A DNA stretch of 64,000 nt from Mesostigma viride (taxonomy: Eukaryota; Streptophyta; Mesostigmatophyceae; Mesostigmatales; Mesostigmataceae), in assembly GCA_009746045.1 (NCBI GenBank), contig RPFO01001490.1, positions 1 to 64,000 of the forward strand. The letters run 5' to 3'. Under the pieces are notes generated by a model. That model was not told where the DNA came from. It saw only the letters and a list, made by a program, of their open reading frames with translations, and did not search any database. Below, piece by piece: positions 612-54,171 of the stretch. The translations under genes were made by a program, and so were the position numbers. Position 1 is the first letter of the stretch, and each line of letters begins with the position of its first letter.

Positions 612-1015
612 AGTTACGCCCGCCGTCGTTTCTTGTCTTACTGGAAGAGCACATGACCAACATTGGTTGTGCTAGTTACGCCCGCCGTCGTTTCTTTTGC
701 CTTTTCGATGTCGAAATATATCTCGGAAAGATGCACCCCCGTCAGTTAACTTGTCATCTTGTAAGCTCAATCTTTCCATGATAGTTACGCCCGCCGTCGT
801 TTCTTTTGCATCTTCGATGTCGAAGTGTTTGTCGTGAAAGTTGCATCCCCGTCAGCTTCTTGTAAGATCAATGTTTCATGATAGTTACGCCCGCCGTCGT
901 TTCTTTTTTATTTTCGATGTCGAAGAATATGTCGTGAAAGTTGCAGCGCGTTCGTGTCCATTGTGATCTTGTGATATCAAAGTTTCCCATGATAGTTACG
1001 CCCGCCGTCGTTTCT
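612..1015 (+). repeat. Five GC-hairpin repeats in ~100-bp tandem units
   Basis: Five copies of the hairpin motif (starting 612, 674, 783, 883 and 994) read GTTACGCCCGCCGTCGTTTC. From the second copy on they sit in imperfect units of about 100 bp that also share a 'TTTTCGATGTCGAA' inverted repeat and a 'TTGCATCCCCGTCAG' segment. They lie upstream of the first gene remnant and are all in the plus orientation, like the genes that follow. No long ORF is supported here. Confidence 0.85.
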
Positions 1016-1134
1016 GTTGCTTCTCGTTCGTTTAAAATATCTAATGAAGTTTTTACCATCGTTCACCTAAAACAAATTACTTTAAATCTGCACCCGTTAA
1101 ACCACACCCCCCTCGAAATGACTCCATGGTTGCA

Positions 1135-1364
1135 GAACAAATGTCAGAAGAAGAACAAAAAAATGCTTCGGAAACCACAAGCGCAAAAGGAAAGCCGATG
1201 ACAATTTAGAGACCCTCTCGGAGGATGTGCCGGAGTTGGTTTCTTCGGATGACGAGTTTGAATACTCAAAAACATCAGGGGGACAAGTTCTTGAGAAAGC
1301 ATGGAAGGTGTTTGTGACAAACGCGTTTGTGGAATGGATAAAAAAAAACTATTCCGAGGAATAG
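1135..1364 (+). CDS. Possible C-terminal exon of an unrecognised protein
   Basis: An open frame runs from an AG acceptor-like site (GGTTGCAG ending at 1134) to TAG at 1362-1364. It has a basic start (KRKRK) followed by an acidic stretch (TLSEDVPELVSSDDEFE) and a hydrophobic/charged tail ending NYSEE. There is no in-frame ATG, so this could only be a downstream exon or a decayed gene. AT-rich sequence with AATAAA follows at 1380. The product is not recognised. Support is composition and the splice-like context only. Confidence 0.3.
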
Positions 1365-1432
1365 TAACTTGTTATTATAAAATAATAAATTAATGTTTAT
1401 GAATTTTTTTGTTCGTTTTTTCCCTGAAAAAG

Positions 1433-2113
1433 ATGGAGTCCGAGATCGTGAATGAAGTCTACGGAAGCGTCCTTCAAAACGTTTTCAAACAAGTTCGCTT
1501 TCTGTCGCGTGTCATATTCGAGGAAGTTCGAGTCGCGCAGGAGAGGACAGGCCGCCACTTGGCCGTTTTATTGGCGTTTGATTCGTTCAGCCAAATGGAG
1601 AGAATTATGTACGCCCAGCTAGCTGATATGAACTTCTGTATTCAAGAGGGTTTTTTCAGACCACAGATGGATCTAAGAGTGCCCATAGACCCAAGGACGG
1701 AGTTCCGCCTTTTGGTGTCGTTCATTACAAAGGGGCCAAAGATAGAGTTGGGGGAAGAGGAAGGGGCTCAGCTTGGGTGCACCTACGGGCGCGCATTTTA
1801 CCCGAATGTTACGCATTCTCTGCGCGTGAGGGCTGATGCATGTGTAGGGGCAGTACCCCTCAACATGAACTTTTTCTTGCTCTCTGACCCGATCGTGAGG
1901 GATGGGGATCGCATGCGTAGTACGCGAAAGTGCTCCAAGGAGGGGTGTGGGTGCGAAACAGGACCTCATATCAAGTGGTGTAGAGGATGTAGGGATGCCA
2001 GATATTGCAGTGAGGAGTGCCAGCGTGCGGACTGGAGTAGGCATAAGGATAGATGCGAACGTCTGAGGCAAGCGAGGGAGGTGCTGGCAGGGGTGAAGTG
2101 GGGGTTAACGTGA
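1433..2113 (+). CDS. MYND-type zinc-finger protein
   Basis: 226 residues, starting at the ATG at 1433, which directly follows a pyrimidine-rich stretch ending in AAAAG; an in-frame upstream extension has no ATG. Residues ~166-207 contain a MYND finger: Cys pairs (CSKEGCGC), then WCRGC, YCSEECQ and a final WSRHKDRC, the normal order of the seven Cys and one His. MYND fingers bind proline-rich partner peptides and occur in SET-domain, deubiquitinase and scaffold proteins; no second known domain is visible here. The N-terminal 160 residues are unrecognised but look like a folded mixed alpha/beta segment. Next gene starts 170 bp downstream on the same strand. The finger is well supported; the biological role is unknown. 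Confidence 0.8.
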   Translation: MESEIVNEVYGSVLQNVFKQVRFLSRVIFEEVRVAQERTGRHLAVLLAFDSFSQMERIMYAQLADMNFCIQEGFFRPQMDLRVPIDPRTEFRLLVSFITKGPKIELGEEEGAQLGCTYGRAFYPNVTHSLRVRADACVGAVPLNMNFFLLSDPIVRDGDRMRSTRKCSKEGCGCETGPHIKWCRGCRDARYCSEECQRADWSRHKDRCERLRQAREVLAGVKWGLT

Positions 2114-2287
2114 CGACGATACTGGATAAAACTATGGGGTCTGATGTCGACTTCTCCTTCAACTTCCACGACGGCTCTGCCTCTTAGAAAAACTTGAAAT
2201 GTAGAGTAATAACTTGTTTATATGATGTTATTTTAATGTTTAATGTTTAATGTTTATAACGTATCATTTTCCTCCTACGCGCAGGAA

Positions 2288-2488
2288 ATGGTGGAGGTTA
2301 AGGAGAGTTTGGCCAAAAGGCAAAGGACCGACACACTTCGACATAATGGAAGGAGTCTTCCATTGTACATCAAAAAAATAGTCGAGGATTACTGGCTCGC
2401 TTCCGACTCGACTCCTCGTCCGAGTCCGGTGATACCGGACAGTGTCAAAGTCTGGAAGGTTTCAGCACATCAATCGCACATTGAATAG
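2288..2488 (+). CDS. Small hypothetical protein
   Basis: 66-residue frame starting at the ATG three bases after a CGCAG acceptor-like site at 2280-2284; an extended in-frame start at 2243 is less likely because that part looks like a spacer. The protein is basic near the start (KRQRTDTLRHNGR), contains a central IKKIVEDYWLASD helix-like segment and a Ser/Pro-rich tail. No family recognised. It lies in line with its neighbours on the plus strand, with a hairpin repeat 33 bp after the stop. It could also be one exon of a longer gene. Confidence 0.4.
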   Translation: MVEVKESLAKRQRTDTLRHNGRSLPLYIKKIVEDYWLASDSTPRPSPVIPDSVKVWKVSAHQSHIE

Positions 2489-2520
2489 ATAATGTTTTAT
2501 CGCCATATTGCTGTTCGACA

Positions 2521-2542
2521 AGTTGCGCCTTGGGGCGTTTCT
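2521..2542 (+). repeat. GC-hairpin repeat between genes
   Basis: Variant GTTGCGCCTTGGGGCGTTTC. The arms pair as GCGCC/GGCGT around a TTGG-type loop. It is 33 bp past the stop of the upstream small ORF and 111 bp before the next ATG; AATAAA-type sequences follow it at ~2570-2590. Confidence 0.8.
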
Positions 2543-2627
2543 TTGCGCCAAATTTAAACCTTCGTATTAATAAACAAGTACAATAAAAAAATTTCAAAAC
2601 GTTTTTTGAATTTTATTTTCCGGGGCC

Positions 2628-2652
2628 GGTATGTTATCGTAACTTGTCGCAG
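2628..2652 (+). promoter_or_regulatory. Conserved pre-ATG signature ending in CAG
   Basis: GGCCGGTATGTT...GCAG directly abuts ATGTCC. The same block recurs before the next gene (3778-3799: GGCCGGTATGTTCTGG...CGCAG then ATGTCC). GGTATGTT resembles a 5' splice site and CGCAG a 3' splice site, but they are too close (about 20 bp) to bound an ordinary intron. A splice acceptor for a leader, or a start-site context element, are both possible. Confidence 0.5.
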
Positions 2653-3519
2653 ATGTCCGGTTCGACGGAAGATTCGTCCGATTCGTCTAGTCACCTCCTG
2701 ATGGAGGATTGGCAACGACTTCAACAACACCAAGCGGTTGCCACTGTCATTCAGAGTGTTGCTCGCTCAATAGGGGCGCCGCGCAAGTGTGATGTGTCCA
2801 CTTGCAAGAAAACCGCTCTCGGATTTGACTTGTATTGCCGAAAGCACGAAGAACATTCTCGTCACATCGAAAATGCCCTCAGTCGCGGACTTGGAATGGC
2901 GGGCGCCCTCGGACCTGGATTGGCGGGGGGGGCCCTGCGACTTCGCCTGGACATGACTGTCGGAGAGGTCGTGGGTGTAAATTTTGATTTCACCAGGGGA
3001 GACGAGTACTTCCTTGAAGATTGGATAGTCAAAGACTCCGCGACAGGTGCGGACTTGGCAAAGGGAGGCTACGTTGCCGGCGCCCAAGAAAATGGTTGGA
3101 GTAGCTTGAGATGCTTTTTGATGACGACACCTTTTGCCGACTCGCGTGACACGGATGTAAGCGAACTTTATCGGCGTATGTGTTTTGCACTCGCCGACAT
3201 TCCGCTGATAACTCAACGAGAGTTCGATTTTCGCGTGGAAACAAAAGCCAAAGCGATTGTATCCGGCGTGAAGGCGATTGTGGAGGAGGAGCAGGATTCT
3301 CTGTGTGCAGAGTATTTGGAGAGAGTGGCCCCGATGAAGACGAGGAGGTCCGAAATCTATCCTGACACCGGCAACAAGGAGGCAAAGTTGGTGGCCGCCA
3401 AAGAAGAGATGTTCGCTCGTGTCGATGAAATGGCGGCGAAAGAGGTTCCGAGAGTTCGCTCGATCGGTTGTTGCAAAACCTGCAGAGAGTGGAACGAGTC
3501 GCGGGACAGTCTATATTGA
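2653..3519 (+). CDS. Hypothetical protein with C-x4-C-x10-C-x2-H knuckle
   Basis: 288 residues, starting at the ATG that directly follows CGCAG. A Ser/Asp-rich N-terminus is followed at residues ~46-66 by CDVSTCKK...YCRKH, a C-x4-C-x10-C-x2-H putative zinc knuckle. This resembles in spacing the short C-x4-C-x-K-x(n)-C-x2-H fingers of WRKY19-like type. A Gly/Ala/Leu segment and a mixed domain follow, and the C-terminus has another Cys pair (CCKTC). The downstream gene at 3800 has the same knuckle near its N-terminus and similar length, so the two look like diverged tandem duplicates. No enzymatic motif was recognised; nucleic-acid or protein binding is inference only. Confidence 0.65.
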   Translation: MSGSTEDSSDSSSHLLMEDWQRLQQHQAVATVIQSVARSIGAPRKCDVSTCKKTALGFDLYCRKHEEHSRHIENALSRGLGMAGALGPGLAGGALRLRLDMTVGEVVGVNFDFTRGDEYFLEDWIVKDSATGADLAKGGYVAGAQENGWSSLRCFLMTTPFADSRDTDVSELYRRMCFALADIPLITQREFDFRVETKAKAIVSGVKAIVEEEQDSLCAEYLERVAPMKTRRSEIYPDTGNKEAKLVAAKEEMFARVDEMAAKEVPRVRSIGCCKTCREWNESRDSLY

Positions 3520-3523
3520 TATG

Positions 3524-3685
3524 AGTTGCGCCCGCCGGCGTTTCTCTGGTCTTGAATGCCCCCCCTCTACATACACATTATATTGTCTGGACATTCGTAT
3601 GTAGTGACAATCGTAGTCGATGTGATTGCCATTCGTTTGTACGTAGAAAGTGGTTGTTGAGGAAGTTGCGCCCCAGGGCGTTTCT
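3524..3685 (+). repeat. Two GC-hairpin repeats in the intergenic spacer
   Basis: Copies at 3524-3545 (GTTGCGCCCGCCGGCGTTTC) and 3664-3685 (GTTGCGCCCCAGGGCGTTTC). The first starts five bases after the upstream stop codon. In the second both arms differ from the first yet still pair (GCGCCC with GGGCGT). The rest of the spacer to 3799 is AT-rich with AATAAA at ~3738. Confidence 0.8.
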
Positions 3686-3777
3686 TTGTTGCATTTTCTT
3701 CAAATTTTAGCTCGCATAAATAGATGAAGATGACTTAATAAATGCCAGTTTTTTTTAATAATATAAACTACTCGCGG

Positions 3778-3799
3778 CCGGTATGTTCTGGTTTCGCAG
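3778..3799 (+). promoter_or_regulatory. Second copy of the pre-ATG signature
   Basis: GGCCGGTATGTTCTGG followed by TTTCGCAG immediately before ATGTCC. It repeats the block at 2628-2652, including the first two codons, consistent with duplication of the whole gene unit or with a conserved acceptor/start signal. Confidence 0.5.
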
Positions 3800-4492
3800 A
3801 TGTCCAGTCTGACGGTCGACATAAGGGGACGTCCATATCAGGACGCTGTTTTCCGGATTTTTGAGAAGGATCCCGAAAAGAAGTGCCGGGATAGGAAATG
3901 TAAAAAGCTGTCAATTACCGACATGGGTCTGTGTGGGGAACACATCGTAGCTTTTGGAAAGGACATGATTTCCCGTCATTTGCAACAATACGTTGACAAC
4001 AATTGTGTGGGAGGGGCGCAGATGGACGTCCTTCTTGAGGATGGAGTGGACGGAGCCAAAAGGGCTGTAATTCGGCTGTCGGAAATGGATGATGACAAAG
4101 AGGACGTGAACATTCGCCTTAAGAGGCACGACGATAACACGGCCGATTGTGTGTTTGGGTCTCGAGGAGTGGCGGATGAGAGGCAGGTCTTCCATGATGC
4201 CGCGGAGAAGGTGGTGGAATGGATGATGGGTTGGTCAAATCTTGACGTTCGCATATTCAACCGTCTGACGTCTGATTTCCTTCTCCGGGGAAGTTTCAAG
4301 ATGGTTGACCGTGCAAGGCAGTCCAGGAACCAGGTATCCGTTTCCATGGCCAGTCCGATCGCACGCATGATTGAGGGGGCCCTCTTCCGCGCAACCTTGC
4401 CTCGAGATTTCGAAAATACCGTGAAGGGCTCGACCGAAAATCAGCAGCGATTTCCCATTCGCGAACCACTTATGGGTCGACGGAGGTGGTAA
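3800..4492 (+). CDS. Hypothetical protein, paralogue-like C-x4-C...C-x2-H knuckle
   Basis: 230 residues from the ATG adjoining CGCAG to TAA. Residues ~29-49 hold CRDRKCKK...LCGEH, matching the knuckle of the upstream gene. The middle is rich in Asp/Val/Arg (ALLEDGVDGAKRAVIRLSEMDDD-like composition) and the C-terminus is basic, ending GRRRW. Not recognised beyond the knuckle. Similar start signal, order of parts and size argue for an old duplication with the 2653 gene, although overall similarity looks low by eye. A 260-bp spacer with two hairpins separates it from the next gene. Confidence 0.65.
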   Translation: MSSLTVDIRGRPYQDAVFRIFEKDPEKKCRDRKCKKLSITDMGLCGEHIVAFGKDMISRHLQQYVDNNCVGGAQMDVLLEDGVDGAKRAVIRLSEMDDDKEDVNIRLKRHDDNTADCVFGSRGVADERQVFHDAAEKVVEWMMGWSNLDVRIFNRLTSDFLLRGSFKMVDRARQSRNQVSVSMASPIARMIEGALFRATLPRDFENTVKGSTENQQRFPIREPLMGRRRW

Positions 4493-4572
4493 CGGAATTT
4501 TTTTGCATTTCCTTGCCAATTGATTCTTTATGAGGGACATAGAGTTGTTTGTATAGAGAGTGAATTGACGAA

Positions 4573-4707
4573 AGTTGCGACGGCGGTCGCATCTTTTAGT
4601 GCGTCGTTCTCTTGTTATGAATCTCTGTTCATTCTGAATTATAACGTTGTTTGTACCTTGACATAATGATGCATTTTTTGTATTGAGTTGCGACGTGGGG
4701 CGCATCT
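4573..4707 (+). repeat. Two variant GC-hairpin repeats
   Basis: 4573-4594 (GTTGCGACGGCGGTCGCATC) and 4686-4707 (GTTGCGACGTGGGGCGCATC). Both carry CGCATC instead of CGTTTC on the right arm, which turns the G.T pair at stem position 4/17 into G-C. In the first, A7-T14 replaces the C7-G14 pair of other copies. The spacer between them has no ORF. Confidence 0.75.
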
Positions 4708-4755
4708 TCCTGCTGACTCGTATGTTTTTTCCAATTTTTTTGTTTTGTGTTGCAG

Positions 4756-6443
4756 ATGGAAAAGGGCGGCCCTACATCGCAGGTGGTCGGCGACTCTCCC
4801 CCTAGGGGGGAAGGGTCAGAAGGGCAACCAGTTCAGGCCCAAGGCGCCTCCCCACAACAGCCTCCTCACAAGCGTGCAAGGGAGGGCACGCCGCCCCCAA
4901 TGGTGGAATCTGGTGTCAGCTTTGCCGCGGTCACTGGGAAGGATGAGTACCACGGTGGTCTTGAGATGGTGGACGATCCGGTTAAGCGGATTCAGATTGA
5001 GCGGTTTGAGCGACTCGCGAATGGCACTCGTGAACAGCAATTCGCGCTGTACCAAGACATCCTTAATGACAAACCTGAAGTCGCCAAGGTGCCTTATACC
5101 TCCAAGCGCACATTCATGCCTCGTTTCGAAACCCTGCTCCAGCAGGAGCTAAGGTTGCGTCGGTTGGCTCAGAATGCGCCAGAGACAGTAGCCGCCGCGC
5201 CCTCCCATGCCGCGCCTGCCGCAGTAGCCCAAAAGAGGGGGGAGAGTGTGCACGAGTCGGCCGCAGTGCCCTCAACCGCAAGGGATCCCCCCGCGACTTC
5301 CAAGCCGGTCGCGACGGGCGATATGCCCCCGCCGCGGCAGAGGGGAAGGGGGAAGGGGGTCGATGGAGGGGAAGTCCTCGATGTTTTCGATATGACGCTG
5401 GGCAATTTGGAAGGTGGCGGGCCGATCTTCGTAAGTCTCCGCCCATTAAATTGATGTCGTGAAATACAATACGCATTTTTTTGCAATATTCGCCAGACAT
5501 GTCATTTCCGACAACTAAGCGGATTTTTACTTTCCGTTGAAATGTTCGCAGGGCCGGCAAGAGGATGTTGGTGCAAGAGAAGCCCGCTCAATGGCGGGAA
5601 GCACCCAGGTACATGAGTGCGTCAGATTCCTCTCCGGTTTACTTGTATTGAAAAGGTTTGCGTGCGTATATCCTTGTTTATTTTTGTAGTAATTTTTTTC
5701 TTGTGAATGGACAATCGCGTTTGCTATTTTTACAGGGAAGTCCGTTCGAGCAGCAAGAGGGCGGTGACAGGAGGGGAAGTGGATCTTACGGTGGTTCCAC
5801 TGCAGAGGGGGGAAGGGTAAGTTACCGTTGACTTAAATTGAAAGTTTAGGTTCGTCCTCAATTGACAGAGTTACGACGGCCGGCGTTTCTCTACACTTTT
5901 CTTACATTAAAAATCTTCCGTTGATAATGTTCTTGCAGGAAGCCGGTCGTCAGGGTGGGGCAAATCTCCAGGGAGAGGGGGCTATCGCTGTCGGTGAGCC
6001 TGTGTCAGAGGGCGCGGGTGGAAGCGACGGCGATACTGCGAAAATGACACGCTTTAAGGAGCAAGCGGATGCTTATCAACTGAAGAAGTTGGCAAAGTGG
6101 GTTGTGGCCGAGGTGAGAACGGAAACAGCCCCACCTGAGGTACGGAACCAGATGATGACTCTCCATCAAGTCGCTGAGTTGATCGTGAAGAATGCGTGCC
6201 GGCCCGATGGCGCCACACAGCCTGAGGAGATCCCGAGCGCCAAGGCCTTGATAAAGTGGATGCAGGAGAACCTGTTCGAGGGCAAAGGGAAGGAGAGGAA
6301 GTGTAAACTGTTGACGGTGACGAGCGGACGCCAAGACTCTGATCAAGATGTTGAAGGAACACGATGCCCGCCGGGACAAGTCTCCGAAGATCGCGAAGGG
6401 GTCGAAGAAAGCGGCTGAAGCAGCAGCGGTTGAGGGGAATGAG
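4756..6443 (+). CDS. Large multi-exon hypothetical gene, exons 1-4
   Basis: The start ATG at 4756 follows a pyrimidine tract ending TTGCAG. Exons inferred by phase-0 GT-AG joins are 4756-5430, 5552-5608, 5736-5816 and 5939-6443. The N-terminus is Pro/Gln/Gly-rich and disordered (PPHKRAREGTPPP). Residues ~60-140 form a helical, charged segment (RIQIERFERLANGTREQQF), followed by Ala/Pro-rich linker. Exon 4 carries a helical domain (DAYQLKKLAKWVVAEVRTET). Near 6320-6400 the better reading frame changes (AKTLIKMLKEHDARRDKSPK in the other frame), so there is a one-base indel or an unrecognised intron. No known family. The model is inferred without transcripts. Confidence 0.55.
5869..5890 (+). repeat. 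GC-hairpin repeat inside an intron
   Basis: GTTACGACGGCCGGCGTTTC lies in the inferred intron 5817-5938, 52 bp after its GTAAGT donor and 48 bp before the TTGCAG acceptor. Confidence 0.8.
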
Positions 6444-6884
6444 GTAAGTCTACCTCTGTTGTGAGGGGGGCTTTGTTCTTGAGGTCCACGTTTCATGTAG
6501 GTTGCGACGGCCGGCGTTTCTAAGTGTGACACTTACTTCCTTTTGACTAACACTTACTTCCTTTCCTGATTTCGCATCGTTGAGGGAAATGAGCCAAGTG
6601 TACCTCTGTTGTGAGGGGGGCTCTGATCTTGAGGTTTAGGTTTCATCTAGGTTGCGACGGCCGGCGTTTCTCAAGTGTGACATTTACTTTATTCCTTTCG
6701 GTTATGCTTTCCTGATTTTTTCATATCATTGTTAAGGGGAACGAGGTAAGTATACCTCTGTTGTGAGGGGGGCTTTGATGTTGAGGTTCAGGTTTCATGT
6801 AGGTTGCGACGGCCGGCGTTTCTCAATCGGCATTTACTTTATTCCTTTTGGTTATGCTTTCCTGATTTTTTCGCATCACTGCAG
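6434..6884 (+). repeat. Intron triplicated in tandem, one hairpin per unit
   Basis: Three ~150-bp direct repeats (about 6434-6583, 6584-6736, 6737-6884). Each begins with the end of the exon (GGGGAAYGAG) and a GTAAGT-like donor; the middle copy has GCCAAGTG instead. Each carries TACCTCTGTTGTGAGGGGGG, then GTTGCGACGGCCGGCGTTTC (6500, 6650, 6802), then a pyrimidine-rich tail. Only the last unit ends in a good acceptor (CACTGCAG at 6884). The intron therefore probably runs 6444-6884 with repeated internal donors. Confidence 0.8.
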
Positions 6885-8071
6885 TACGTGCAGGCCGAGA
6901 GGGCGACCCACGCGGCCATCCTGTACTCAATCAGCCTCGACCAGCACGCGCGCCGCGAGAACATGAAAATAGATAGTACGTGGACTGCTGCCGTCGACGA
7001 ACACCAGAAGGGACTCTCCGAAGCACTTGCGACCTACAAGGGGAAGGCGCTGAAGGGAAAGGGGAAAGGAAAGGAGGTGGAGGTTGCGGATGCTCCCGTG
7101 TCTCTGCTTGAGAAATGGGAGAAGTCCCCGGTGTCGCAGGATGATGATGACATCCTGGATGTGAACGATGAGATCGCGAAGGGCAAACGGTTGCGGAAGC
7201 AGCTTGCCGTTCAGCCTCGGGACCTCGATGAGATGTCCAAAGCCTTGGTGCATCGAAATCGGGTGTGGACAAGGAACCTGTTCGTGGGGCCTCAGAAGCT
7301 CCTCGCACGAGACTTGCATCTGTCTAGAGCCGAGCAGAACGCCACCATTTTTGCAAACTCGGAGTCCGACTACGGCCACGACAAGCTGGTGATTCCTGTG
7401 TGGCGGTACTCGTTCCAGTTTTTGGCTGACCGGTGCCCCAACACTTTTCATGACTGGATGAAAAAGGAAGGCACCCAGCGTCAGCTCGCGCAACTCTTCG
7501 GGGAGATGGGGGGGCACGGACAATGAAGGCTGGCTACGCTCGCGCAATGACTGACAAAGAGATTGATATCTACCTGCGAACGAGCTCGGCCAAGGGAATG
7601 GCCGAAGCTGCTTCCACCGCGGTTCTGACAGGACGGGCCGATTTGCTGGACGATCTTAAGCCCGTGGACGTGAGAAAGGCCGCGCTTTTGGACAGTTTGT
7701 GCAAGTCCGCCTGGGAGATGGCTCCACTCGAGAAGAAGCCACCGTTGCCGCCAGCCATTTGCGGCTTTCTCGTGCTGGACGGGAACCACTTTACCACACT
7801 CATCAAATCGGTGAAATTCGAACTGGTCACCGACAATATGACGGTGGACCAAAGATCTGTGTGGTACCAGGCAATGCTGAATGGTTTCATGAAGGCGGAA
7901 AAGCTCAGGGTCGTTGCGCGGGGAGGGAAGGAGCAGGAGGTCACGAAGACCGTGGCCGCGGCGAAGCTGGAGGAGTGGGCAACTGATTGGACGAATTTCG
8001 GGGGGGTGGACGTGCAGATGCTCAAGGGTGAGACCATCCTGCCGACCTGGTGGCAGATCCGTGAACAGAAG
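6885..8071 (+). CDS. Large multi-exon gene, central exon (one frame break)
   Basis: Reads from the CACTGCAG acceptor to the donor GAACAGAAG/GTAAGC. First part (to 7526) includes a Lys/Gly linker (KALKGKGKGKE), an acidic patch and a well-packed domain (RDLHLSRAEQNATIF, VIPVWRYSFQFLADR). It stops at TGA 7524-7526, overlapping an ATG at 7523 from which the frame continues with a domain containing AAICGFLVLDGNHF-type hydrophobic segments and WATDWTNFGGVDVQ. The break follows a run of seven G at 7507-7514; one extra G would fuse the two frames. Sequencing/assembly slip, a real mutation, or two overlapping cistrons are all possible; a slip is likeliest because both halves are flanked by phase-0 introns of one gene. 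Function unknown. Confidence 0.55.
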
Positions 8072-8327
8072 GTAAGCCAGGTTGCGACCGCCGGCGTTTC
8101 TATAAGTGGTTTTCTTGTGTTAATTTCAGTATGCCATTAGTTCGGTCAAGATGCGACCGCCGGCGTTTCTATAAGGGGTTTTCATGTTCCACCTTAGCAT
8201 GCCATATTTTGGTCAAGATGCGACCGCCGGCGTTTCTGTCAGTCGTATTCTTGTTCTCAGTTGAGTTGTGCTTATTTGGGAGGACTGTCGATGTGTCTCT
8301 GCGCGTTGTTGCCCTACGGGGATGCAG
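8072..8327 (+). other. Intron with three hairpin repeats
   Basis: GTAAGC donor at 8072 and GGGATGCAG acceptor ending 8327, phase 0. Three ~68-bp tandem units each carry GATGCGACCGCCGGCGTTTC or GTTGCGACCGCCGGCGTTTC (8080, 8149, 8216). The first hairpin begins only eight bases after the donor. Unit ends contain TTTCAG-like sequences that could act as alternative acceptors. Confidence 0.75.
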
Positions 8328-10133
8328 GTTACCGAACAAGTCGGCAAGATGATCGAAGTTGTCAGGCAGCTCGGGAACGCCATGAACGCCGAGGACACAG
8401 CCCAAGCCAAGGCAACGTGGGGCTCAGCGCTGGGGGATGTGCACCGGGCCTACCAGGCATATGGACCCGTCAAGAGAGGGAAGGGCGTGTCTCTCCCAAC
8501 TCCTCTGTACGGCAAGATCTGGGCGATTGTGAAGCCCTTTTGGCAGAAAGGAGAGCAAGCCAAGGCCGAAGGGGACGGCGCAGGCGACAAGGCAGGAGGG
8601 GCTGAAGAGACGGACAAGTGGGGGCCGGACCAGAAGAACTTCATGCAGCGCTGGCTGTTCTGGTGTGAGGACCCTTTGAAGCCCGCTGTCGACGGCAAGC
8701 CGGCGATCGCACAGGATATCGCGGCTCGGCAAGACTTCCTTGACACGCGCCCTAAAGACAAGGCGCACGAACTGTCCATTTTCACCGCGCATCGGGAACT
8801 TGCGAGTTTCCAGTACTTCGACAGCCTGATCCAAGCGCCGATCATGTCCTGTGAGGCCCCTCCCAGCAACCTGATAAAAATAATGGAAGTCGCCAAGAAT
8901 TTGATAGAGGCGGCAAAGCAATTCGCCCACATCAAGTTCCTGGAGAACCCCGAGCTGATGGCCGCTTGCAAACAACTAAACGGGACTTTCGACCCCGTAT
9001 TGGTGAGGGAGCACGTGTTTGGCGTGAAGCTGAAGGGCACCTTCGCCACGGACCTCGACAAGTTCATCGCCGACTGCCGCCTGACCAGAGACTTTTGGCG
9101 GGTGGTCGTCACGGCCATGAGGGCGATCATTCTCACGCTGAGGGACCTTCCGCCGGCTAAAAGGAAAGTGGTCGACCAGAAGGACTGGAAGTTCCCGAGA
9201 GGGCTGCTCGCTTCCCACCCCCGTCATTTGTATGACGATTTGGGGGTGAAGACCAAACATCTGCTGGGTGTGCCACAGGAGGCGGCGGCGGAGGTCGAGA
9301 AGGAGGTCGAGGAGGCGGCGGAGGAGGGGACTACCAAGGCCAAGAAGGGGTGGAAGGAAAGGTTGGAAGCCTACAGCGATTGGAAGGGGGTGAGGATGGG
9401 ATCCGACTGGATCGCATACAGGACAATGACATGGAAGGAAAACGAAAAAAGAAAGGATCTGGTGGTGACGAAGGTGGTGGACGAGTTGTGCGCGGGGAAT
9501 TACAAAATTCCTCGGTCGCTGGAGGACCAGGCGTTTGCTGTGCTGGACCTGGCAGCTGACAGCAACGAGAAGTGGAGGAACCTGCGCAAGTGGGACGCAG
9601 ACTGCATTCCGGAGGAGAGCAACATTCCCAAACCCTCCTCGCATTTGAGCCCGGTCGTGTGGGATGTGGTTGACAAGATGACCAACGCCCTTTTTAGGGG
9701 ACCCTGCAGAGTTCTGCTGGTGTTCGGGGAGCCCGCCCATATCCGCCGGTGGAAGCGCCTGGTCCGCCTTATCAAATATTGGCTTGTTGAAGATGGGTGG
9801 GAAGGCCTCAAATACTTTTCCGACGACGATTCTTCGTCTGATGAGGATGATGATTCGGAGAAGGGGGAAGAGGGGGAGGCGGATGAGGATGAGAAGGAGG
9901 AGGATGAGGAGGAGGAGGATGAGGAGGAGGAGGAGGACGAGGAGGACGAGGAGGACGAGGAGGACGAGGAGGACGAGGAGGAGGATATTGCTGAGGGGCA
10001 CCCGCCCGGGATGGGTGAGGGGCAGGCGGAGGGGGAGAAAGGGGATGGGGATGGGGAGATGGGAGGAGGGGGAGGGGGGGGAGAGGGACGGGGGAGGAGA
10101 TGGAAGGGGAGGGAAAAAGCGCAGTCGGGGTGA
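8328..10133 (+). CDS. Large multi-exon gene, C-terminal exon with Glu/Asp tail
   Basis: About 600 codons open from the GATGCAG acceptor to TGA at 10131-10133. Residues ~1-480 of this exon look globular and helical, with no recognised catalytic motif (segments such as LTRDFWRVVVTAMRAIILTL and WKERLEAYSDWKGVRMGSDW). From ~9820 to 10000 it becomes an almost pure Asp/Glu tract encoded by GAGGAC/GAGGAG repeats, then Gly-rich and basic. Acidic tails of this sort occur in histone-binding and nucleolar proteins, but also arise simply from triplet expansion. The strand opposite contains only mirror low-complexity frames. Not recognised. Confidence 0.6.
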   Translation, partial: VTEQVGKMIEVVRQLGNAMNAEDTAQAKATWGSALGDVHRAYQAYGPVKRGKGVSLPTPLYGKIWAIVKPFWQKGEQAKAEGDGAGDKAGGAEETDKWGPDQKNFMQRWLFWCEDPLKPAVDGKPAIAQDIAARQDFLDTRPKDKAHELSIFTAHRELASFQYFDSLIQAPIMSCEAPPSNLIKIMEVAKNLIEAAKQFAHIKFLENPELMAACKQLNGTFDPVLVREHVFGVKLKGTFATDLDKFIADCRLTRDFWRVVVTAMRAIILTLRDLPPAKRKVVDQKDWKFPRGLLASHPRHLYDDLGVKTKHLLGVPQEAAAEVEKEVEEAAEEGTTKAKKGWKERLEAYSDWKGVRMGSDWIAYRTMTWKENEKRKDLVVTKVVDELCAGNYKIPRSLEDQAFAVLDLAADSNEKWRNLRKWDADCIPEESNIPKPSSHLSPVVWDVVDKMTNALFRGPCRVLLVFGEPAHIRRWKRLVRLIKYWLVEDGWEGLKYFSDDDSSSDEDDDSEKGEEGEADEDEKEEDEEEEDEEEEEDEEDEEDEEDEEDEEEDIAEGHPPGMGEGQAEGEKGDGDGEMGGGGGGGEGRGRRWKGREKAQSG

Positions 10134-10179
10134 TGGAGGCTTGCGTGATGAGACAATGGGGGGGATGAAGACAACAGGG

Positions 10180-10545
10180 GGGGAGGTAAGCGCCAGCGTG
10201 CTGGTGAAGGAGACTCGAGGCCTGTCGTTGGAAACGCCGGCGGGCGTATCTGTGACGAGGAGGGGGATCGCCAGCGGGAGGGAGGCTCGAGGCCTGTTAC
10301 TGGAAACGCCGGCGGGCGTATCTGTGATGAGGAGGGGGATCGCCAGCAGGAAGGAGGCTCGCGGCCTGTTACTGGAAACGCCGGCGGGCGTATCTGTGAT
10401 GAGGAGGGGGATCGCCAGCAGGAAGGAGGCTCGCAGCCTGTTACTGGAAACGCCGGCGGGCGTATCTGTGATGAGGATGGGGATCGCCAGCAGGAAGCAG
10501 GCTCGCGGCCTGTTACTGGTAGCGCCGGCGGGCGTTCCCGATTTA
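10180..10545 (+). repeat. Five 72-bp tandem repeats carrying antisense hairpins
   Basis: Units of exactly 72 bp hold the hairpin in the opposite orientation (GAAACGCCGGCGGGCGTATC; copies at 10230, 10302, 10374, 10446 and a degenerate one at 10518). A plus-strand frame is open through all units because 72 is a multiple of three, giving a 24-residue repeat containing LLLETPAGVSVMRRGIAS. GAGGTAAGC just before the array (10182-10190) looks like a donor, so the array may be intronic rather than coding. Confidence 0.8.
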
Positions 10546-10568
10546 CGGGAGGCGGTCGTGTCCGACAG

Positions 10569-11027
10569 ATGGGAATGAGGCCTCGTCAGGATTCATGGGG
10601 ACCCCCGGTTGAGGGGACCCCCGCCCTCGCCTCGGTTTCTTTGGGTCTGGGTGACGATCCCGTACCGTCGTCAGGAAGGACGGTTGTGATGACTTTGCCC
10701 CCCCGCTCGACGGGGATGGAGCAATGCCCGAACACGATACTGCTGAATGAGGATGACGATCCGGAGCCGTCGGCTGACACGGATTTTGTTGCGAGCACCC
10801 CACTGCAGAAGAGGGTATTGGAGGCTCGTAACGTGGAGGGTCCGCCGAAAGTCTCAGGTGGAGGGCCGGCGTTTGCCGGATTGATGCGCCCGACTGAGGT
10901 GGTCGATGTTGAGGCGCCGCCAGGGACATCGACCGCACCGTTAACATTTACGGATATCTTCGATCGACCAAGGATGCCCTTCCACGCTCCAACGGTACAT
11001 TCGGCCGGTAAATTTCATTTTCAATAA
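10569..11027 (+). CDS. Unrecognised ORF, Pro/Asp-rich
   Basis: 152-codon frame ending in TAA within CAATAAACG at 11022-11030, which could also serve as a polyadenylation signal. Composition is Pro/Thr/Val/Asp-rich with low structure (PPRSTGMEQCPNTILLNEDD). It directly follows the 72-bp repeat array in a different frame. Could be a disordered C-terminal exon, a separate small gene or chance. No homologue recognised. Confidence 0.3.
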   Translation: MGMRPRQDSWGPPVEGTPALASVSLGLGDDPVPSSGRTVVMTLPPRSTGMEQCPNTILLNEDDDPEPSADTDFVASTPLQKRVLEARNVEGPPKVSGGGPAFAGLMRPTEVVDVEAPPGTSTAPLTFTDIFDRPRMPFHAPTVHSAGKFHFQ

Positions 11028-11149
11028 ACGAGTTTTATAAGTACCTTAATATATTTCTACATAAGTTTTTTTGCATCAGTCCATGGCTTCATTGATTTCT
11101 CACACGACCCTTCCGTATTCATGTTAATTGGCATGTGCTTACGTGCAGG

Positions 11150-11843
11150 GAAAGGCGAAGAAGAAACTCCAGTTCGGTTTCCCCGTGGATCCGCGTCTGG
11201 GACTGTGTCCAGAGAGGCCGGCCGTGTTGTTGGCCAGGCCGCGGTCGGCGAACCAGTTGCACAACCGGGGGCGGGAGGGGACGAGCTCCCACCCAACGCA
11301 CCAGCTCACGCACCAGCCTTACCGTGCGGTCAGCCAGAAAAAACGTACGAAGAGTTGATGGCAGAGGCGGCGGCTGCGCAGGGGCAGAAGGCAAAACGTC
11401 GGGGAGGGGGCAGGCGAGGGGCGGGGCAGGAGACGGAGGGTGCCGACGAACCTGCACAGCCGCAGAAGGGTGGTGGTCAGGGCAGAGATGCGACGGCCGA
11501 AAACCGAATCAGGGACGTTCGGCCGGACGTCCGGATGCGCTTTATGGATGGCGCGAAACTGAGTCGCGGAGGTTGGAGTTCGAAATGGGTAGACGACGTG
11601 TGCATAAACTGGCAGCACAAGTACCCCAAGAAGGAAGATTTTCCGCTCTTTGGCACCCTCCTGGGCAAAGAGAGGGAGAAGGTGGTGTTCAGATGGTTTG
11701 ATGAAGGGCACGACCTCGGTTGGAGTAATGAGTGCGAGCAAAAGTTTCGTTTCCCTCTGAAGTTCGCTAGAGAACATGTTACTCTCCTGAAGGAAGGCGC
11801 CAGCTGGGACAACATTCCTTCATATCGACCTGGCAAGCGATGA
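11150..11843 (+). CDS. Unrecognised protein or last exon of the cluster
   Basis: Open from an ACGTGCAG acceptor-like site at 11149 to TGA 11841-11843 (~230 codons); an in-frame ATG exists at 11121 upstream of the acceptor. First half is disordered, Gly/Ala/Gln-rich with a basic KAKRRGGGRRGAG stretch. Second half is a compact domain with many aromatic residues (GGWSSKWVDDVCINWQHKYP, FPLFGTLLGKEREKVVFRWF, FPLKFAREHVTLLKEG). Same strand as the upstream cluster. Family not recognised. It may be the 3' exon of the large gene or its own gene. Confidence 0.45.
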
Positions 11844-12029: not shown

Positions 12030-12400
12030 ATGTGTTCTTTCAACATATTCGGACATGTATGAAATGAATAAATTGTTTGGACGATTGCAAATTGATTGAT
12101 TGAAGAATGAGATACCATTAATAATTGAAAAATGTAAAACCTCATTGTGAATTTGTACTTCAAACTTTCACATGCATGCCCCAAATTGTGCATTTGTGCA
12201 GGTTTTAATTATGAGAAGTAGCATTTCTCTACAAATATTGAGAAATTTAGGGGCACTTGGGGTTGTTGGCCATGTTCATTCATGATAAAATGGACTTTTT
12301 ATGCTGTAAAATCATATTCCACTAGTCCAAAACGCTGCTTTCATGACGTCAAAAGTACCAGCAATGGCCCTAGGTTGGAGCAGTAGATGTTGGGGACGCC
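12030..12400. repeat. Dispersed repeat shared with 49.4 kb and 57.3 kb
   Basis: Sequence around GAGATACCATT, TTTCACATGCATGCCC and TTTAGGGGCACTTGG recurs inverted at ~57340-57515. The adjoining segment (TCAAAAGTACC, then GGAGCAGTAGATGTTGGGG) recurs inverted at ~49466-49520. No ORF or terminal repeat defines the element. Confidence 0.6.
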
Positions 12401-12404
12401 CGGG

Positions 12405-20497: not shown

Positions 20498-20725
20498 AGG
20501 CGTTTCCATTGGTCTTATCGTAGTATAGAGCTTTGACATGGCTCTGTATATAGGTTTATAGCTGGGCGTTTGCTTTGGTTTGAGTGATTTCACTCTGTTG
20601 TAAGTAATTATATTTTTTATATATATATTAAAAATATAATTACTTACAACAGAGTGAAATCACTCAAACCAAAGCAAACGCCCAGCTATAAACCTATATA
20701 CAGAGGCCGCATATATATTAAAAAT
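20498..20725. repeat. Two short 3'-end fragments of the second LINE class, inverted
   Basis: A plus-oriented ~115-bp fragment (20498-20612) and a minus-oriented ~78-bp fragment (20628-20705) of the LINE 3' UTR meet at an AT tract, forming a long imperfect palindrome. CCGCATATATATTAAAAATA occurs on both outer sides (20479-20498 and 20707-20726), so this pair inserted into the tail of the copy that follows. Confidence 0.75.
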
Positions 20726-28845: not shown

Positions 28846-28957
28846 AACCAGCGCAGGCCAGAAATCGGGAGAATCCGGACCATGGTAGCTCGAGCCTGCC
28901 GTTATCTTGTCCGCGTGTTCGAGTCGTTCAGGATGATGAATATGAATGGTGATGGAA
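28845..28957. repeat. ~110-bp repeat shared with 43.53-43.65 kb
   Basis: CAAGGAGACAACCAGCGCAG through AATATGAATGG is ~95% identical to 43531-43645. It includes GTTCGAGTCG, faintly B-box-like, but no folded tRNA or SINE tail is evident. The function is unknown. Confidence 0.6.
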
Positions 28958-30562: not shown

Positions 30563-30636
30563 GTAGACAACCTTCCTCGTCGGCTCGCGGCTAACAGGCT
30601 TCGGGGACAGCCTCTAAATAGTCCCGTTCCACTACC

Positions 30637-34106: not shown

Positions 34107-34266
34107 TGTAGTTAGGCTTTTCTAGATAGAGTCAGGATAGTTCGATCACGCGGCTTCCTCCACCCCATCCATCATGAAATATGTGCTACATGACCTCCCC
34201 ACGGAGGCATGTTATAATTTAATTTAATTTAATTTAATCTAATCTACACTACTGGTATATATATTC

Positions 34267-38098: not shown

Positions 38099-38099
38099 A

Positions 38100-46461: not shown

Positions 46462-46488
46462 GAGTTCCTAGTGTGGTCTATATATATA

Positions 46489-47858: not shown

Positions 47859-47873
47859 TGGTCTATATATATA

Positions 47874-49433: not shown

Positions 49434-50121
49434 TCAGCTCCCAAGAAGACCAGCATTTGATTGAAGGGCGTCCCCAACATCTACTGCTCCAATTTTGGTA
49501 CTTTTGAAATTCCATGCCTGGAGCGCAAAGTTTGCAATATATGTGCCGTTTGTAGCTCTAGCTCTATAATAACCTGACCAACCCCGCATTCCTCAAAGTA
49601 CTTAGCACTTGTTGCCTATTCTCATTATGCGAATCACATGATTAGGATGTGCTTCATGATTGCTATTGCTCGAGATTCAATTAAGAATGATTGACATCAA
49701 TAAATGATGAACCAAATAAACCAAATTAGGCCACTTGACAAGTTCATGATCCATTTAAATTGTACAATTAAGCGATTAATTAATTCATAAATCATACATT
49801 ACATGGGATACCCCCGTCGACGAGCTAGTGGTACGTACAATGAAACATTTGAGTTTGTAACATGTCTCCATGGATATATACATGTATGCTGGACCTCGCG
49901 CATCTCAGCCCTCTAAGAAATGTTATTTGAACTCAGGTCTAGATCTAAATATATACATGATCTGGATAATATTATACACTTCCTTAAAAGAGCATGAATC
50001 GAGCTTTACAATTCAGGACAAGGAACTCGTTTGCAAATCACGGCTGAAAGGCAAGTGCTCACAACGAAGCACGTGCTCTCAAGGCTGTCCACCTCGTCCA
50101 ACCAAGCCCGGGCGAGCTGGC
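49434..50121. other. Non-coding AT-rich spacer
   Basis: 49466-49520 is an inverted match to 12350-12400 (CCCCAACATCTACTGCTCC). The remainder has no ORF or recognised element. Confidence 0.55.
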
Positions 50122-53100
50122 CTACTCAACAGGTCTCTTCTTGGCCAAGTTCGTGAGCCGTTTCTCGACGTCTGTCGGAATGGTCAAGATGGCCTGGCGA
50201 TTGTTAGCTGGGTTGACAACAATGGTGTGTTCGAACCCCGCGTCCATGCACAGGTAGCAATTGACCAAGTTTGGCTGTTCAGCTTGCGCATCGGCGTCCA
50301 TTTTGAACATCGTCGCCATACCCGGAAATCTGTCCCAGTAGCGCACCCCCACCACCCATTGTCCCTTACGGAACAACTCCCTATCGACCTTGCCGTTTCT
50401 GTCGGCCACTCGCCTCACGAAAGTAGCGGCCACCTGATAAGGCTCCTGCAAGACTTCCGCTAGCCAATATGGATGATCTGGATCGTGGGACTCATCACCA
50501 GAGTAGGACTCGACGGCAAAAATGTCTCGCAGCTTCAGTCTCCTTCCCATCATCGTCCTCTCTGCCTGTAGTCTGTTCAGTCGCGTCCCTGCGTGCCCCC
50601 CTTGTCCGTTTGGGTTCCTTTGCACTGGCTCCCCCAGTTTGTGGAGCTTCATCCGAGCACCTCCCACATTCCAGCCGTCCATGTCGGTCCACTCCTTTCG
50701 ACAATCCCACCACCTTTCCTCGGCGCACGCACCGCCACAATAGCAGGAATACTGGCGCAGCATTAAGCGCGTCACATTCGACTTGTCCATGCGCCACCAG
50801 TGCGCCTTCTTCACTCCTTTGATTTCGCCGCGCCCTGGGCTGTAAGGAAGCACCTGCGCGTCGAAGACAAGATTTGCACAAGGGAAAGTTGAAGTTACGA
50901 GACCATCGAGCTAGTTGTGTTTTATTAAGCACTCCTGATCGCCAGGACTCCAAGAACGCCCTAGAAACGACGGCCGGCGTAACTATTCCCTGAACGAGGA
51001 CTGTACACTTAATTACCTCGGGGAACTCGAAGAAGTTACGCCTGGTCGTTGTGGTCCCGCCCACCGCCCCCGACGCCAGATTCTCCACCAACTGGGCGGC
51101 CGTCTGTTTGTCCTGGTTCTCTTCCCTGATGTGCCACCTCCTCAACATGCACTTCACAGTCCCACCAGCTCCATCCACCTCCCCCTTTCCGTGCTGCTCC
51201 CCAAAGTAATTCCACTCAAATGACTCCAGGTGCGGATCCTCCGTCAGCAGCCGGGCCACTTCCGCGATCACATTCCTTGACTTGAACTGCATGGAGCAAT
51301 TGTCCGACCACCCAATGAAGCGCTTCACCTCTACCCCTTCTGACCGTAGTGTCGCCAGGATTTTGAGGATAGCAAAACGGAGGGCCCGCCCGTCCCTTTT
51401 CATTCCGCCCTGTCCGATGAAGTGAAACTCCCTTCTCACGACCTTTCCCGACGCTGGATCCAAGTAGCGCACGATCCAGGGCATAAGGACGAATGTGACT
51501 GGATGCCAATACTGTGCTTGGAGATTGTGATAGGTGTAAGACTGGTAGTTCTCGGCGTAATCTGTGTGGCATACAAGGTCCCCCACCCGCATCCTTGAGA
51601 GACATTCCTTGGAGGCGTCCGCTTGCCACCACGCGTTGAAGCAATGCTGGATGAAGTCCGGCCACTTGTCCACAATTGCCTCCTTTAGCTCCGTTGGTGT
51701 GGACTTGACGTCGACTTGCGTCAATCGCTGCCCACCAGCCTTTGCGATCTCGTCACAGTCGTCCTGCATATGCGCAGTGTGCACATACAGAAAAGACATC
51801 AACTTCGACCCACCAATGACCTGTAGAAAGAAAAAAGACAGGACCTCAGGAAAAATTGAAAAAGAAACGCCTTGGGGCGCAACCACTCCACTAAAAATTA
51901 CCTCTGGCCCAAGAACTTCAGGAAACATTGCAAAAGAAACGCCTTGGGGCGCAACCACTCCACTAAAAATTACCTCTGGCCCAAGAACCGCACCCGGCGG
52001 CACATCCTGCATCTCGTATCTGGTCCATGAAATCAGGTGGTTGGAAGCCTCCTCCCGTTCGCATAACATGAAGTTCCGAATTCCACACTTGGGAGCCAGG
52101 CAAGTGCCCAACACACAAGCCTTACGCCGGATCGAGCAAACCCCCAACTCCTCGCCCAGGTCATGATCGGGCACCCCTTCCTCGTCGTCCAGCACCCTCC
52201 CATGCATGGGCAGATCCTCAAGTTCGCCCTGAAAAGGCTGAACCTGCGGCCGCGACGACCCCACAGACGACCTCGAACCTCCCCCCTCCCTCATCCCCTC
52301 CACCTCACAAGTAAACTTGTTCACCCACTCTGTCGTGTGAGTGGCTTTGAAAATGGAACATGTGGGCACGGACGACCCCACGTCGAGCTGGCTACCATGA
52401 TCGCACGCGTGGCATTCAGGTCCGCACTCGCATCTGGCATGAAAAGTTGCACGAAATTTGGCCAACCCCCCAACCATGGACTGCATGGTAGTGTGGTGCT
52501 GGCATGCGCACAAGTTCCGCATTTTCCACCGCCCCTTGACGCATGCGGGCATATGCTTGCAAAAAGTAGTGTATCCCACATGAACTGTGCTCTTCTGATT
52601 CGTGCGTAGCATTGACATCCCTGCCTCCGTCTCCAAAATCACCTGATTTCCCCCCCTCACACCCTCCTCTCCCTCCCCCCCCCCCCTCCCTACTGTCCAT
52701 CCGCCGCGGTGGCTTCAACTCCGGATGGCGGGAAATGAACACTTCGTAAATCTTCGACTTGGAGACAGTATAGTAGCGCGCACCCTCCGAAAACGCTAGT
52801 GTATGTTTGTAATCCTTTCTGGTCCATTCACAATGAACATCCTTCATGTTCGGAGACGCCCGCGTCAAGTTATCATCCCTCCAGCACGCTTGTATCAGGG
52901 CAATGACTTCCGTCGGAAGCTCGTCTTTCCTCCTCCTCCTCTCTGGCGCACTCATCAAAAGGTCGTCCTCCCCTTCTTCCATTCCATCCCTGTGACCCCG
53001 AACAGTTGCGACAAAGCGCCTGTCAATCCCGAACGCGCGCTCCACAATCCTGTCCGGGACGCCCTCCATTGCCTTCGTAACAAGTCCACACAAGGCCCAC

Positions 53101-53606
53101 CTAAGCCCACGATCCTTCTCAGATGTTCCCAAGTCGCCAAAAGCCTTCTTGATGTTATCCCGAAGAGATTCCGCCCAATTTTCAGGAAGCCCGCCGTCAC
53201 AGTTCTTCCTCTTCTTAATGCCGTTGCTCTCCGCCACCATGGCATTTAGTCTTGAAGCTGCGCAAGACAGAACCTCCGCGCTCATCTCTGGCGTCCTGTG
53301 GTTGTTTGCTTTCACGCGTTCCGCCATGATAGGAAAGATGTCATTGGCAATTTTGTACCCCTTGTTCTCGATGTACTTGTCGCTCCAGAGACCGCGAAGT
53401 GCAGGCTCCCGGTCGTCATTGGACAAGGGACGCGAACCGTCGGAAACGGCCCCCCGCCCCGATCGCGCCATCAGACTTTGGTCAGACGGCAGCTGATTTT
53501 TTTCGCCTCTTAATCCCGCGGCACCGAAAGCCCTGAGGATGAGTAATGATAAATAATCACCATTAAAGACACGACGAAAACGATGGGCATCAAACAAGAA
53601 CGACAA
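50122..53606 (-). CDS. DDE-type transposase-like protein, four exons
   Basis: Minus strand; exons ~53606-52694, 52620-51974, 51820-51017 and 50853-50122 join in phase, giving ~1,030 residues. The true 5' end is uncertain: CATCCTCAG at ~53536 could be an acceptor. N-terminus: charged, with an HTH-like region (YYTVSKSKIYEVFISRHPEL). Exon 2: Cys/His-rich zinc region (FCKHMPACVKG, CACQHH, CECGPECHAC). Exon 3: catalytic-type motifs TDYAENY, WSDNCSMQFKSR and HGKGEVDGAGGTVK, which match in order and spacing the D/D/E(D) motifs of a transposase-like family seen in many animals and protists. Exon 4: WLAEVLQEPYQV...GVRYWDRFPG domain ending RPVE. No stops or shifts, so probably intact. Hairpin repeats lie in introns 2 and 3. 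Confidence 0.75.
50963..50984 (-). repeat. GC-hairpin repeat in intron 3 of the transposase-like gene
   Basis: Minus-strand GTTACGCCGGCCGTCGTTTC within the intron 50854-51016 (donor GAG/GTAATT, acceptor CGCGCAG), 33 bp after the donor. Sense with respect to the gene. Confidence 0.8.
51821..51973 (-). repeat. Duplicated intron donor segment with two hairpins
   Basis: A 72-bp tandem duplication contains the exon end and donor (CCAGAG/GTAATTTTT) and hairpin GTTGCGCCCCAAGGCGTTTC (51935-51956, 51863-51884). Two equivalent donors (after 51974 or 51902) both keep the reading frame because 72 is divisible by three, so a 24-residue insertion isoform is possible. Acceptor TTTCTACAG at 51821. Confidence 0.8.
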
Positions 53607-53614
53607 GCGTCATT

Positions 53615-54171
53615 AATAACGCCGGCCGGCGCAACTGGATACATGTAAACCATACAAAAGTGATTTTATGAAACACATACAGTTTGTCATTAATAACGAC
53701 GGCCGGCGTAACTCGGGCGCAATTAAAAACCATTAAGAAGCAACTCAGGATATGCAGGCAGAAATCCTTCAGGTGTAAAAAAGATGTACAAACACACTTT
53801 TGGTAATGGGGCCTGATTGCGCAACTGCAAGATACCATTGGAAACGCCGGCCGGCGCAACTGGATGCATGTACATAAACCATACAAAAGTGATTTGCACA
53901 AAACCCCTACAATTTGTCATGAGTAACGACGGCCGGCGTAACTCGGTTGCATTTGAAAACCACAAAGAAGCAACTCAGGTAGTGAAGGCGGAAATCCCAG
54001 AGGTGATAAAATGTTTACCAACACAAAATGTTGATAAGCGTGCAAGCTTTTGCAAGTGCGCGCAAGATACCATTGGAAACGCCGGCCGGCGCAACTGGAA
54101 CACCAAAACAAAAAACTTGATTTGCACGAAACCCATTCAGTTCGTCATGGATAACGACGGCCGGCGCAACT
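53615..54171 (-). repeat. Dimeric hairpin array upstream of the transposase-like gene
   Basis: Six hairpins at 53615, 53692, 53840, 53922, 54075 and 54150 form ~230-bp units, each with one GTTGCGCCGGCCGGCGTT-type and one GTTACGCCGGCCGTCGTT-type copy. Shared sequence includes CATACAAAAGTGATTT and AAGAAGCAACTCAGG. All in the minus (gene) orientation. Units differ by point changes outside the hairpins more than within them. Confidence 0.85.

Follow-up and report, generated by a model that had tools for sequence, protein, structure and literature searches.

Inverted 8-bp half-sites within a giant transposon family of Mesostigma viride: a candidate family-specific DNA site

What is the role of a 20-bp motif that occurs 31 times in two gene blocks of a single stretch of Mesostigma viride DNA? 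The stretch, here referred to as the window, comprises 64,000 nucleotides (C1889:1-64000) of the 440-Mb assembly. Both blocks belong to a giant transposon with terminal inverted repeats (TIRs), and the motif is a dyad of two inverted half-sites. At somewhat better than even chances, we read the dyad as a DNA site that is specific to its transposon family and would be bound by a dimeric protein, probably one encoded by the element, that regulates the element's own genes.

All 31 copies counted in an earlier first-pass annotation were present, with positions shifted by one base: 22 at 613-10538 (block 1) and nine at 50964-54170 (block 2). The motif is the dyad GWWRCGMC-N4-GKCGYWWC, i.e. two inverted degenerate 8-bp half-sites with a 4-bp spacer. 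Exact dyads numbered 27 in the window compared with a mean of 0.02 in 100 Markov shuffles, which excludes chance for the motif family and confirms that the repeat is not random. The remaining four copies (10519, 53616, 53693 and 54151) showed one mismatch each. At distances below 100 bp, inverted pairs of half-sites occurred 27 times with a spacer of 4 bp; the only others were nine pairs at 66-86 bp, since neighbours within arrays stand that far apart. No pair at any other spacing below 60 bp was found in the window scan. Two inverted half-sites of one consensus at a fixed spacing, the hallmark of a dimer site, are therefore present. The half-site alphabet is common to the left and right arms, and the M position takes A or C in one arm irrespective of the other. 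Since the left arm has GTT and the right arm, read from its own side, GAAA, the two are unequal and give the site a direction.

According to this direction 26 of the 31 copies were orientated in gene sense. The five antisense copies form the array at 10231-10538, which the first-pass annotation had already set apart; this array is near-symmetric and its direction is thus weakly defined. Tandem duplication arrays were found at 613-1014, 6429-6877, 8083-8256, 10206-10535, 51846-51988 and 53616-54170, with units of about 62-111, 150, 67, 72, 72 and 230 bp, respectively. Due to these local duplications the 31 copies reduce to about 14-15 independent places. Each repeat unit of these arrays contains a single dyad or a pair of dyads, a pattern that might arise if additional sites were of advantage or if the dyad stimulated duplication. 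Beyond the motif both blocks had little in common, with blastn matches of just 21-41 bp.

Between the blocks, where no copies had been reported previously, the window scan revealed neither an exact nor a one-mismatch dyad. Three two-mismatch dyads were located there (19170, 37294 and 38851). Two of them, 19170 (GTTGCGTCGATGGGCGTTTG) and 37294 (GTTGCGTCGACAGGCGTTTG), resemble each other. Three-mismatch dyads were found at 29513, 30145 and 44932 as well as at 10911 within the block-1 half, and the consensus of the first-pass annotation gave six matches between the blocks at 4-5 mismatches.

The first-pass annotation described the motif as a 20-bp hairpin and considered an RNA-level element. The 20-mer does have an inverted structure, but it is composed of two degenerate half-sites that make an imperfect hairpin. 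In the 19 distinct copies 73.7% of the cells of an RNA stem were paired compared with a shuffled mean of 75.1%, the would-be stem positions 2, 3 and 7 were mostly unpaired, and no covariation measure exceeded its shuffles. Sliding the stem partner led to worse pairing, as expected for any palindrome. RNA folds of 14 copies with 30-base flanks yielded z values of -3.1 (4574) and -2.2 (51864), and the other twelve were ordinary (-1.2 to 1.0). The whole window contained no Rfam match at gathering score. Pairing counts and folds thus speak for a dyad in double-stranded DNA rather than for an RNA hairpin, which we rejected as unsupported.

An element acting in the pre-mRNA, be it in splicing, export, 3' end formation or as target of an element-encoded RNA-binding protein, would nevertheless agree with the copies in modelled introns, which are transcribed and non-coding, with the predominance of gene sense and with the two folds that beat their shuffles. 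However, besides the missing covariation the half-sites vary independently, and a change in one genomic copy (R3, at 3525, C to A) breaks a pair and keeps the half-site. A splicing signal is unlikely because three of the seven introns of the multi-exon gene E (4756-11843, plus strand), according to our own reading of splice signals, lack the motif. In our view a role at the RNA level is rather unlikely.

A genome-wide scan with the pattern GTTRCGMCSGCCGKCGTTTC at up to two mismatches, a check already suggested with the first-pass annotation, identified 6136 places (2976+3160) compared with 71 (35+36) for the reversed control. The first 100 of these, all exact and located on C1 (69) and C2 (31), were analyzed. 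By order and spacing, 95 of the 100 fell into clusters of block-1 or block-2 type, and four of the five isolated places (C1:2901077 and three at C1:2907513-2907751) were fragments of the same element. In total, 99 of the 100 places were thus located in clusters of these types or in element fragments, the exception being the fifth isolated place (C2:6066316). Most of these clusters were judged by spacing alone; the sequence was read for three copies, here named R1, R2 and R3, and for several other loci.

The genome copies identified blocks 1 and 2 as the two halves of one giant TIR transposon. In R1, R2 and R3 both halves are transcribed outward from a centre holding a 71-bp satellite, which in R2 is partly a run of N (19 kb). 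The span of R1 is 34.2 kb. In all three copies and in the window both halves end with an inverted 27-bp sequence, GGGCGTCCCCAACATCTACTGCTCCAA. In the window it is located at 12375-12401 (block-1 end, minus strand) and 49466-49492 (block-2 end, plus strand), the latter most simply belonging to another copy. In total, the TIR was present at 11 of the 14 ends sought, i.e. eight in R1, R2, R3 and the window and three further ones, and was not found at the predicted place for the other three. Two further copies had one or both ends missing at the predicted places. Target site duplications (TSDs) of 4 bp were found in three of the four copies with both ends: AGAT (R1), AACA (R3) and CGAT, the CGAT pair with ends 110 kb apart being taken as one insertion. 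In R2, which carries the 19-kb gap, the TSD mismatched. The element thereby shows the two features of a cut-and-paste DNA transposon, terminal inverted repeats and a TSD of fixed length.

In the window, the transposon ends at 12401 and 49466 point toward each other with 37 kb between them. The simplest reading is therefore that the window contains halves of two copies and that the stretch without the motif lies outside the element. The motif as terminal repeat of the element was rejected, since the TIR sequence differs and the dyads are distant from the ends: the nearest dyad of block 2 lies about 1.5 kb and that of block 1 about 1.9 kb away, and dyads in the window are not clustered next to the TIRs. 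The earlier suggestion of a tiny mobile insertion is correct insofar as the motif belongs to a mobile element; it is neither a terminal repeat nor a demonstrated stand-alone insertion.

The motif is under strong constraint. Compared with four other copies or part-copies, non-coding motif positions carried 2 substitutions in 1115 and no indels, and other non-coding positions 198 in 7434 and 107 indel positions; the p-values (4e-10 for substitutions and 6e-7 for indels) are indicative only, since the window-family copies were picked via motif hits, which biases toward an intact motif, and share ancestry. No change in either R1 or R3 was seen in 18 of 20 motif windows, compared with 1089 of 2085 other non-coding 20-base windows. 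Three distinct motif changes were observed: a C-to-A exchange at M and an A-to-T exchange at W, both of which stay within the half-site alphabet, and one change in the spacer. The count left out R2, which is nearly identical to the window (four flank differences), C1:2256k and C1:2822k (aligned flanks without differences), C1:2901k (47 flank bases aligned, no motif) and the array at 10231-10538, whose coding status is unclear.

A tiny mobile palindrome, comparable to a GC cluster, or a neutral repeat spread by tandem duplication and gene conversion would account for the many tandem arrays and for the little flank shared by copies in different introns and spacers. However, the same places are retained across element copies and the motif changes far more slowly than its flanks, and such a repeat is very unlikely. 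Another alternative is a site recognized by a nuclease or recombinase that the element encodes. The 8-4-8 geometry with its 4-bp centre and pseudo-palindrome would suit such an enzyme, and the tandem units with one site or one pair each could be repair scars. A cut site within the element's own genes should be lost rather than conserved, though, and a Pfam scan of ten window open reading frames (ORFs) and six relatives found no nuclease, polymerase, capsid or tyrosine recombinase domain. We regard this explanation as highly improbable.

Two divergent transposase families are present in the same genome, here named P0044-type, for which 45 scored candidates gave 130 exon matches, and P0002-type, for which 57 gave 89. 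About 2 kb of one copy per family was read, comprising the upstream part with a leading intron and two internal introns. The leading introns are backed by published models, and the proteins read MSREA/RERV across them (joined by eye). The exact window dyad was absent from six stretches of P0044-type and P0002-type copies; its best matches in the P0044-type copy had three and four mismatches. Vice versa, the dyads of both families were absent from the window and three fetched regions of the window family.

The P0044-type leading intron contained GGTCGCGC-TGCA-GCGCGACC, GGTCGCGC-TGCA-GAGCTACC and, off the pattern, GGTCATTT-CGCG-GAGTGACC, and the second internal intron contained GGTATCTC-TGCA-GAGTGACC twice. 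P0002-type dyads resembled GGTCTCGC-TGCA-GCTAGACC. The leading intron held four dyads of the type GGTCTMKC-TGCA. The first internal intron had a single half-degenerate case, and the second again four dyads, three of them in tandem. The half-site GGTMNNKC with a spacer of 4 gave four (P0044-type) and eight (P0002-type) dyads compared with 500-shuffle means of 0.0 and 0.002, respectively; as this half-site was drawn from the same sequences, the counts are descriptive and not an independent test. Three more P0002-type copies were chosen by protein match and are free of motif-selection bias. Here, the sites showed no change in 460 positions compared with 41 in 1888 for the flanks (eight stretches, p = 2e-4); a ninth stretch (L069) was dropped as just 37 bp align. 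Two P0044-type copies diverge at GGCCGGGCCCACTTCG, compared with GGGCGTCCCCAACATC in the window family (one end read). Thus, both the end and the dyads differ between these families.

These differences bear on the possibility that the elements captured the binding site of a host regulator, i.e. a transcription, silencing or chromatin factor. The promoter-like and intron-like positions and the constraint would suit a host factor equally well. However, two related families, each represented by one copy, use other dyads in their transposase-gene introns within the same genome, and the exact places that were traced fall in the element. Families sharing one nucleus have different dyad codes, which makes an element-encoded reader more likely than a host-encoded one, and we consider a captured host site unlikely.

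Two side observations were made in the related families. In both related transposase genes (L058:427-530 and L061:685-795) a TATA-like GCAGGTATAAAAAG is followed about 90 bp later by GGTTCGATTCY, which resembles a tRNA B-box. In the P0002-type copy C2105:49293-51695 the first exon is 100% and the second exon 73% identical to P0002, and this pattern of identity suggests an exchange between subfamilies.

For the favoured reading, a DNA site of a dimeric protein, we propose the following course. A symmetric dimer would read the two inverted 8-bp half-sites with their fixed 4-bp spacer on double-stranded DNA. The reader may be the family-specific transposase or an accessory Cys/His protein, and it would bind along its own transcription units, within introns, in the spacers and upstream of the genes. 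Binding would then regulate or mark the element's own genes (autoregulation or self-marking), and tandem duplication of short segments would add sites.

Several points weigh against this proposal. The sense bias is unexpected for a plain DNA dyad, and direct tandem duplication explains part of it. The dyads are far from the TIRs and hence not classical end-binding sites. In the related families the first internal intron of the P0044-type (L059) held a weak relative only and no dyad of the family pattern, L062 had one good half only, and the dyad at L058:1480 is off pattern. The dyad counts for these families, descriptive as stated, cover six stretches and the transposase-gene part only, and the window-family copies carry the selection bias already mentioned. 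Finally, the reader is putative, and the structure model of the transposase-like protein has low confidence (mean pLDDT 35.8).

Going further, each family of giant transposons might possess a private 8-4-8 DNA code in its introns and spacers and a fast-evolving dimeric reader of its own. Code and reader would change together and separate self from rivals and host, be it for self-activation, anti-silencing or copy counting. We put this forward tentatively and as a view that may well prove wrong. If true, the elements would be a natural series for studying the joint change in specificity of a DNA-binding protein and its sites. Since numerous copies, almost identical to each other, exist in an alga that stands at the base of the land-plant lineage, the predicted dyad-specific binding of an element protein is directly testable.

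The regulation of transposons is usually studied via end-binding sites and host silencing. En/Spm and Ac contain many short repeated transposase-binding sites within a few hundred bp of their ends. The Mesostigma element is similar in that it carries many short sites within one transposon which differ between families, whereas its dyads avoid the ends and are located in introns, upstream regions and spacers. Polintons/Mavericks and Starships are mobile, tens of kb in size and carry several genes. The element described here is likewise large, mobile and multi-genic, but polymerase, capsid and tyrosine recombinase domains were absent from the ORFs scanned and a satellite array is present inside.

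Internal binding sites in transposons are already known, as the sections on the Drosophila P element in PMC7776569 describe. According to these, the P element is likewise a TIR DNA transposon whose transposase gene contains introns and whose transposase binds internal sites in a sequence-specific manner; it measures 2.9 kb, has an 8-bp TSD and carries a single 10-bp site close to either end. The Mesostigma element differs by about 30 dyads spread over introns and spacers, none of them near the ends, a size of 34 kb and a TSD of 4 bp. Neither the motif nor these elements were found described in the literature searched, including the repeat passages of the M. viride genome paper (PMC6947507). 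A text search with pieces of the motif letters also yielded nothing relevant, judging by title, in agreement with the earlier remark that no named family has this sequence. In a viral collection two single matches with one dyad each were judged to be due to chance.

The copies of block 1 are all on the plus strand with the exception of the array at 10231-10538. Five dyads at 613-1014 (613, 675, 784, 884 and 995; GTTACGCC-cgcc-GTCGTTTC) are located upstream of the first gene. In the spacers single dyads were found at 2522-2541 (GTTGCGCC-ttgg-GGCGTTTC), preceding the ORF at 2653, at 3525-3544 (GTTGCGCC-cgcc-GGCGTTTC), 5 bp past the stop of that ORF, and at 3665-3684 (GTTGCGCC-ccag-GGCGTTTC), preceding the ORF at 3800. 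Two dyads at 4574-4706 (4574 and 4687) precede gene E (ATG at 4756). Within gene E one dyad (5870-5889) is located in an intron of about 5818-5938 according to our splice-signal reading, three (6501, 6651 and 6803; 6501-6822) in the intron 6444-6881 with one per 150-bp unit, and three (8081, 8150 and 8217; 8081-8236) in an intron of about 8081-8324 with one per 67-bp unit. The minus-strand array at 10231-10538 (five dyads, 72-bp units) lies in an open frame and is covered by no aligned stretch of the protein models searched.

In block 2, where all copies are on the minus strand, one dyad (50964-50983) is located in the intron 50875-51010 of the transposase-like gene and two (51864 and 51936; 51864-51955), one per 72-bp unit, in the intron 51767-51973. 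Six dyads at 53616-54170 (53616, 53693, 53841, 53923, 54076 and 54151), in repeats of about 230 bp, precede the transposase-like ORF. This region is perhaps the leading intron of the gene; a GT-AG pair from about 54184 to 53533, found by eye, is out of frame with the downstream ORF in this copy. The first-pass annotation had placed the copies in introns or in spacers just after stop codons. This applies to the nine copies within stretches skipped by published protein models (three in 6444-6881, three in about 8081-8324, two in 51767-51973 and one in 50875-51010) and to the dyad at 3525, and the copies outside modelled introns lie in spacers or upstream regions.

The plus-strand ORFs of block 1 ahead of gene E encode proteins with a MYND zinc finger (1433-2113), with a Cys/His cluster (2653-3519) and with a similar Cys/His cluster (3800-4492), the latter two without a Pfam match. 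A CAG directly 5' of the ATG (CAG/ATG), resembling a 3' splice acceptor, was found at 2653, 3800 and 4756. This could point to a leading intron in every gene or to splicing of the genes out of one longer transcript. A search with part of gene E (8265-10130) retrieved 41 protein clusters, every one named Mesvir1.

The transposase-like gene of block 2 (50125-53532, minus strand) has the exons 52618-51974, 51766-51011 and 50874-50125 according to the published model, preceded by a putative N-terminal part. Its protein was 99% identical to eukprot jgi/Mesvir1/28411 over the best stretch. Together with the Mesvir1 clusters retrieved for gene E, this match identifies the alga as Mesostigma viride. 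The motifs HxDxAENY, SDN, QFKS and HGKGE.DG, in this order, are conserved in three families and may correspond to a region of DUF7869 and DDE-type transposases. The domain DUF7869 (PF25273) is presumably linked to DDE-type transposases; the match was weak and below the cut-off (E 0.12, 12.3 bits compared with 26). The structure model was used solely for the order of strands and helices, which resembles an RNase H core at the low confidence given above. No solved (PDB) relative was found in a sequence profile search. The candidate readers of the dyad are this protein and the two block-1 Cys/His proteins, which may bind it.

Further observations concern the centre of the element. In the window the 71-bp satellite array, an internal part of the transposon, extends from 57527 to 63999 without assigned strand. 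In R1 the corresponding array (26395-34191) is several kb in size and internal as well, and is flanked by inverted repeats of about 1.3 kb (25078-26395 and 34819-36135) that are 95% identical. A (CTCTCC)n tract at the contig start (window 1-548) is also part of the element centre (R1 20079-20950), and the contig may break at the window start because of this tract.

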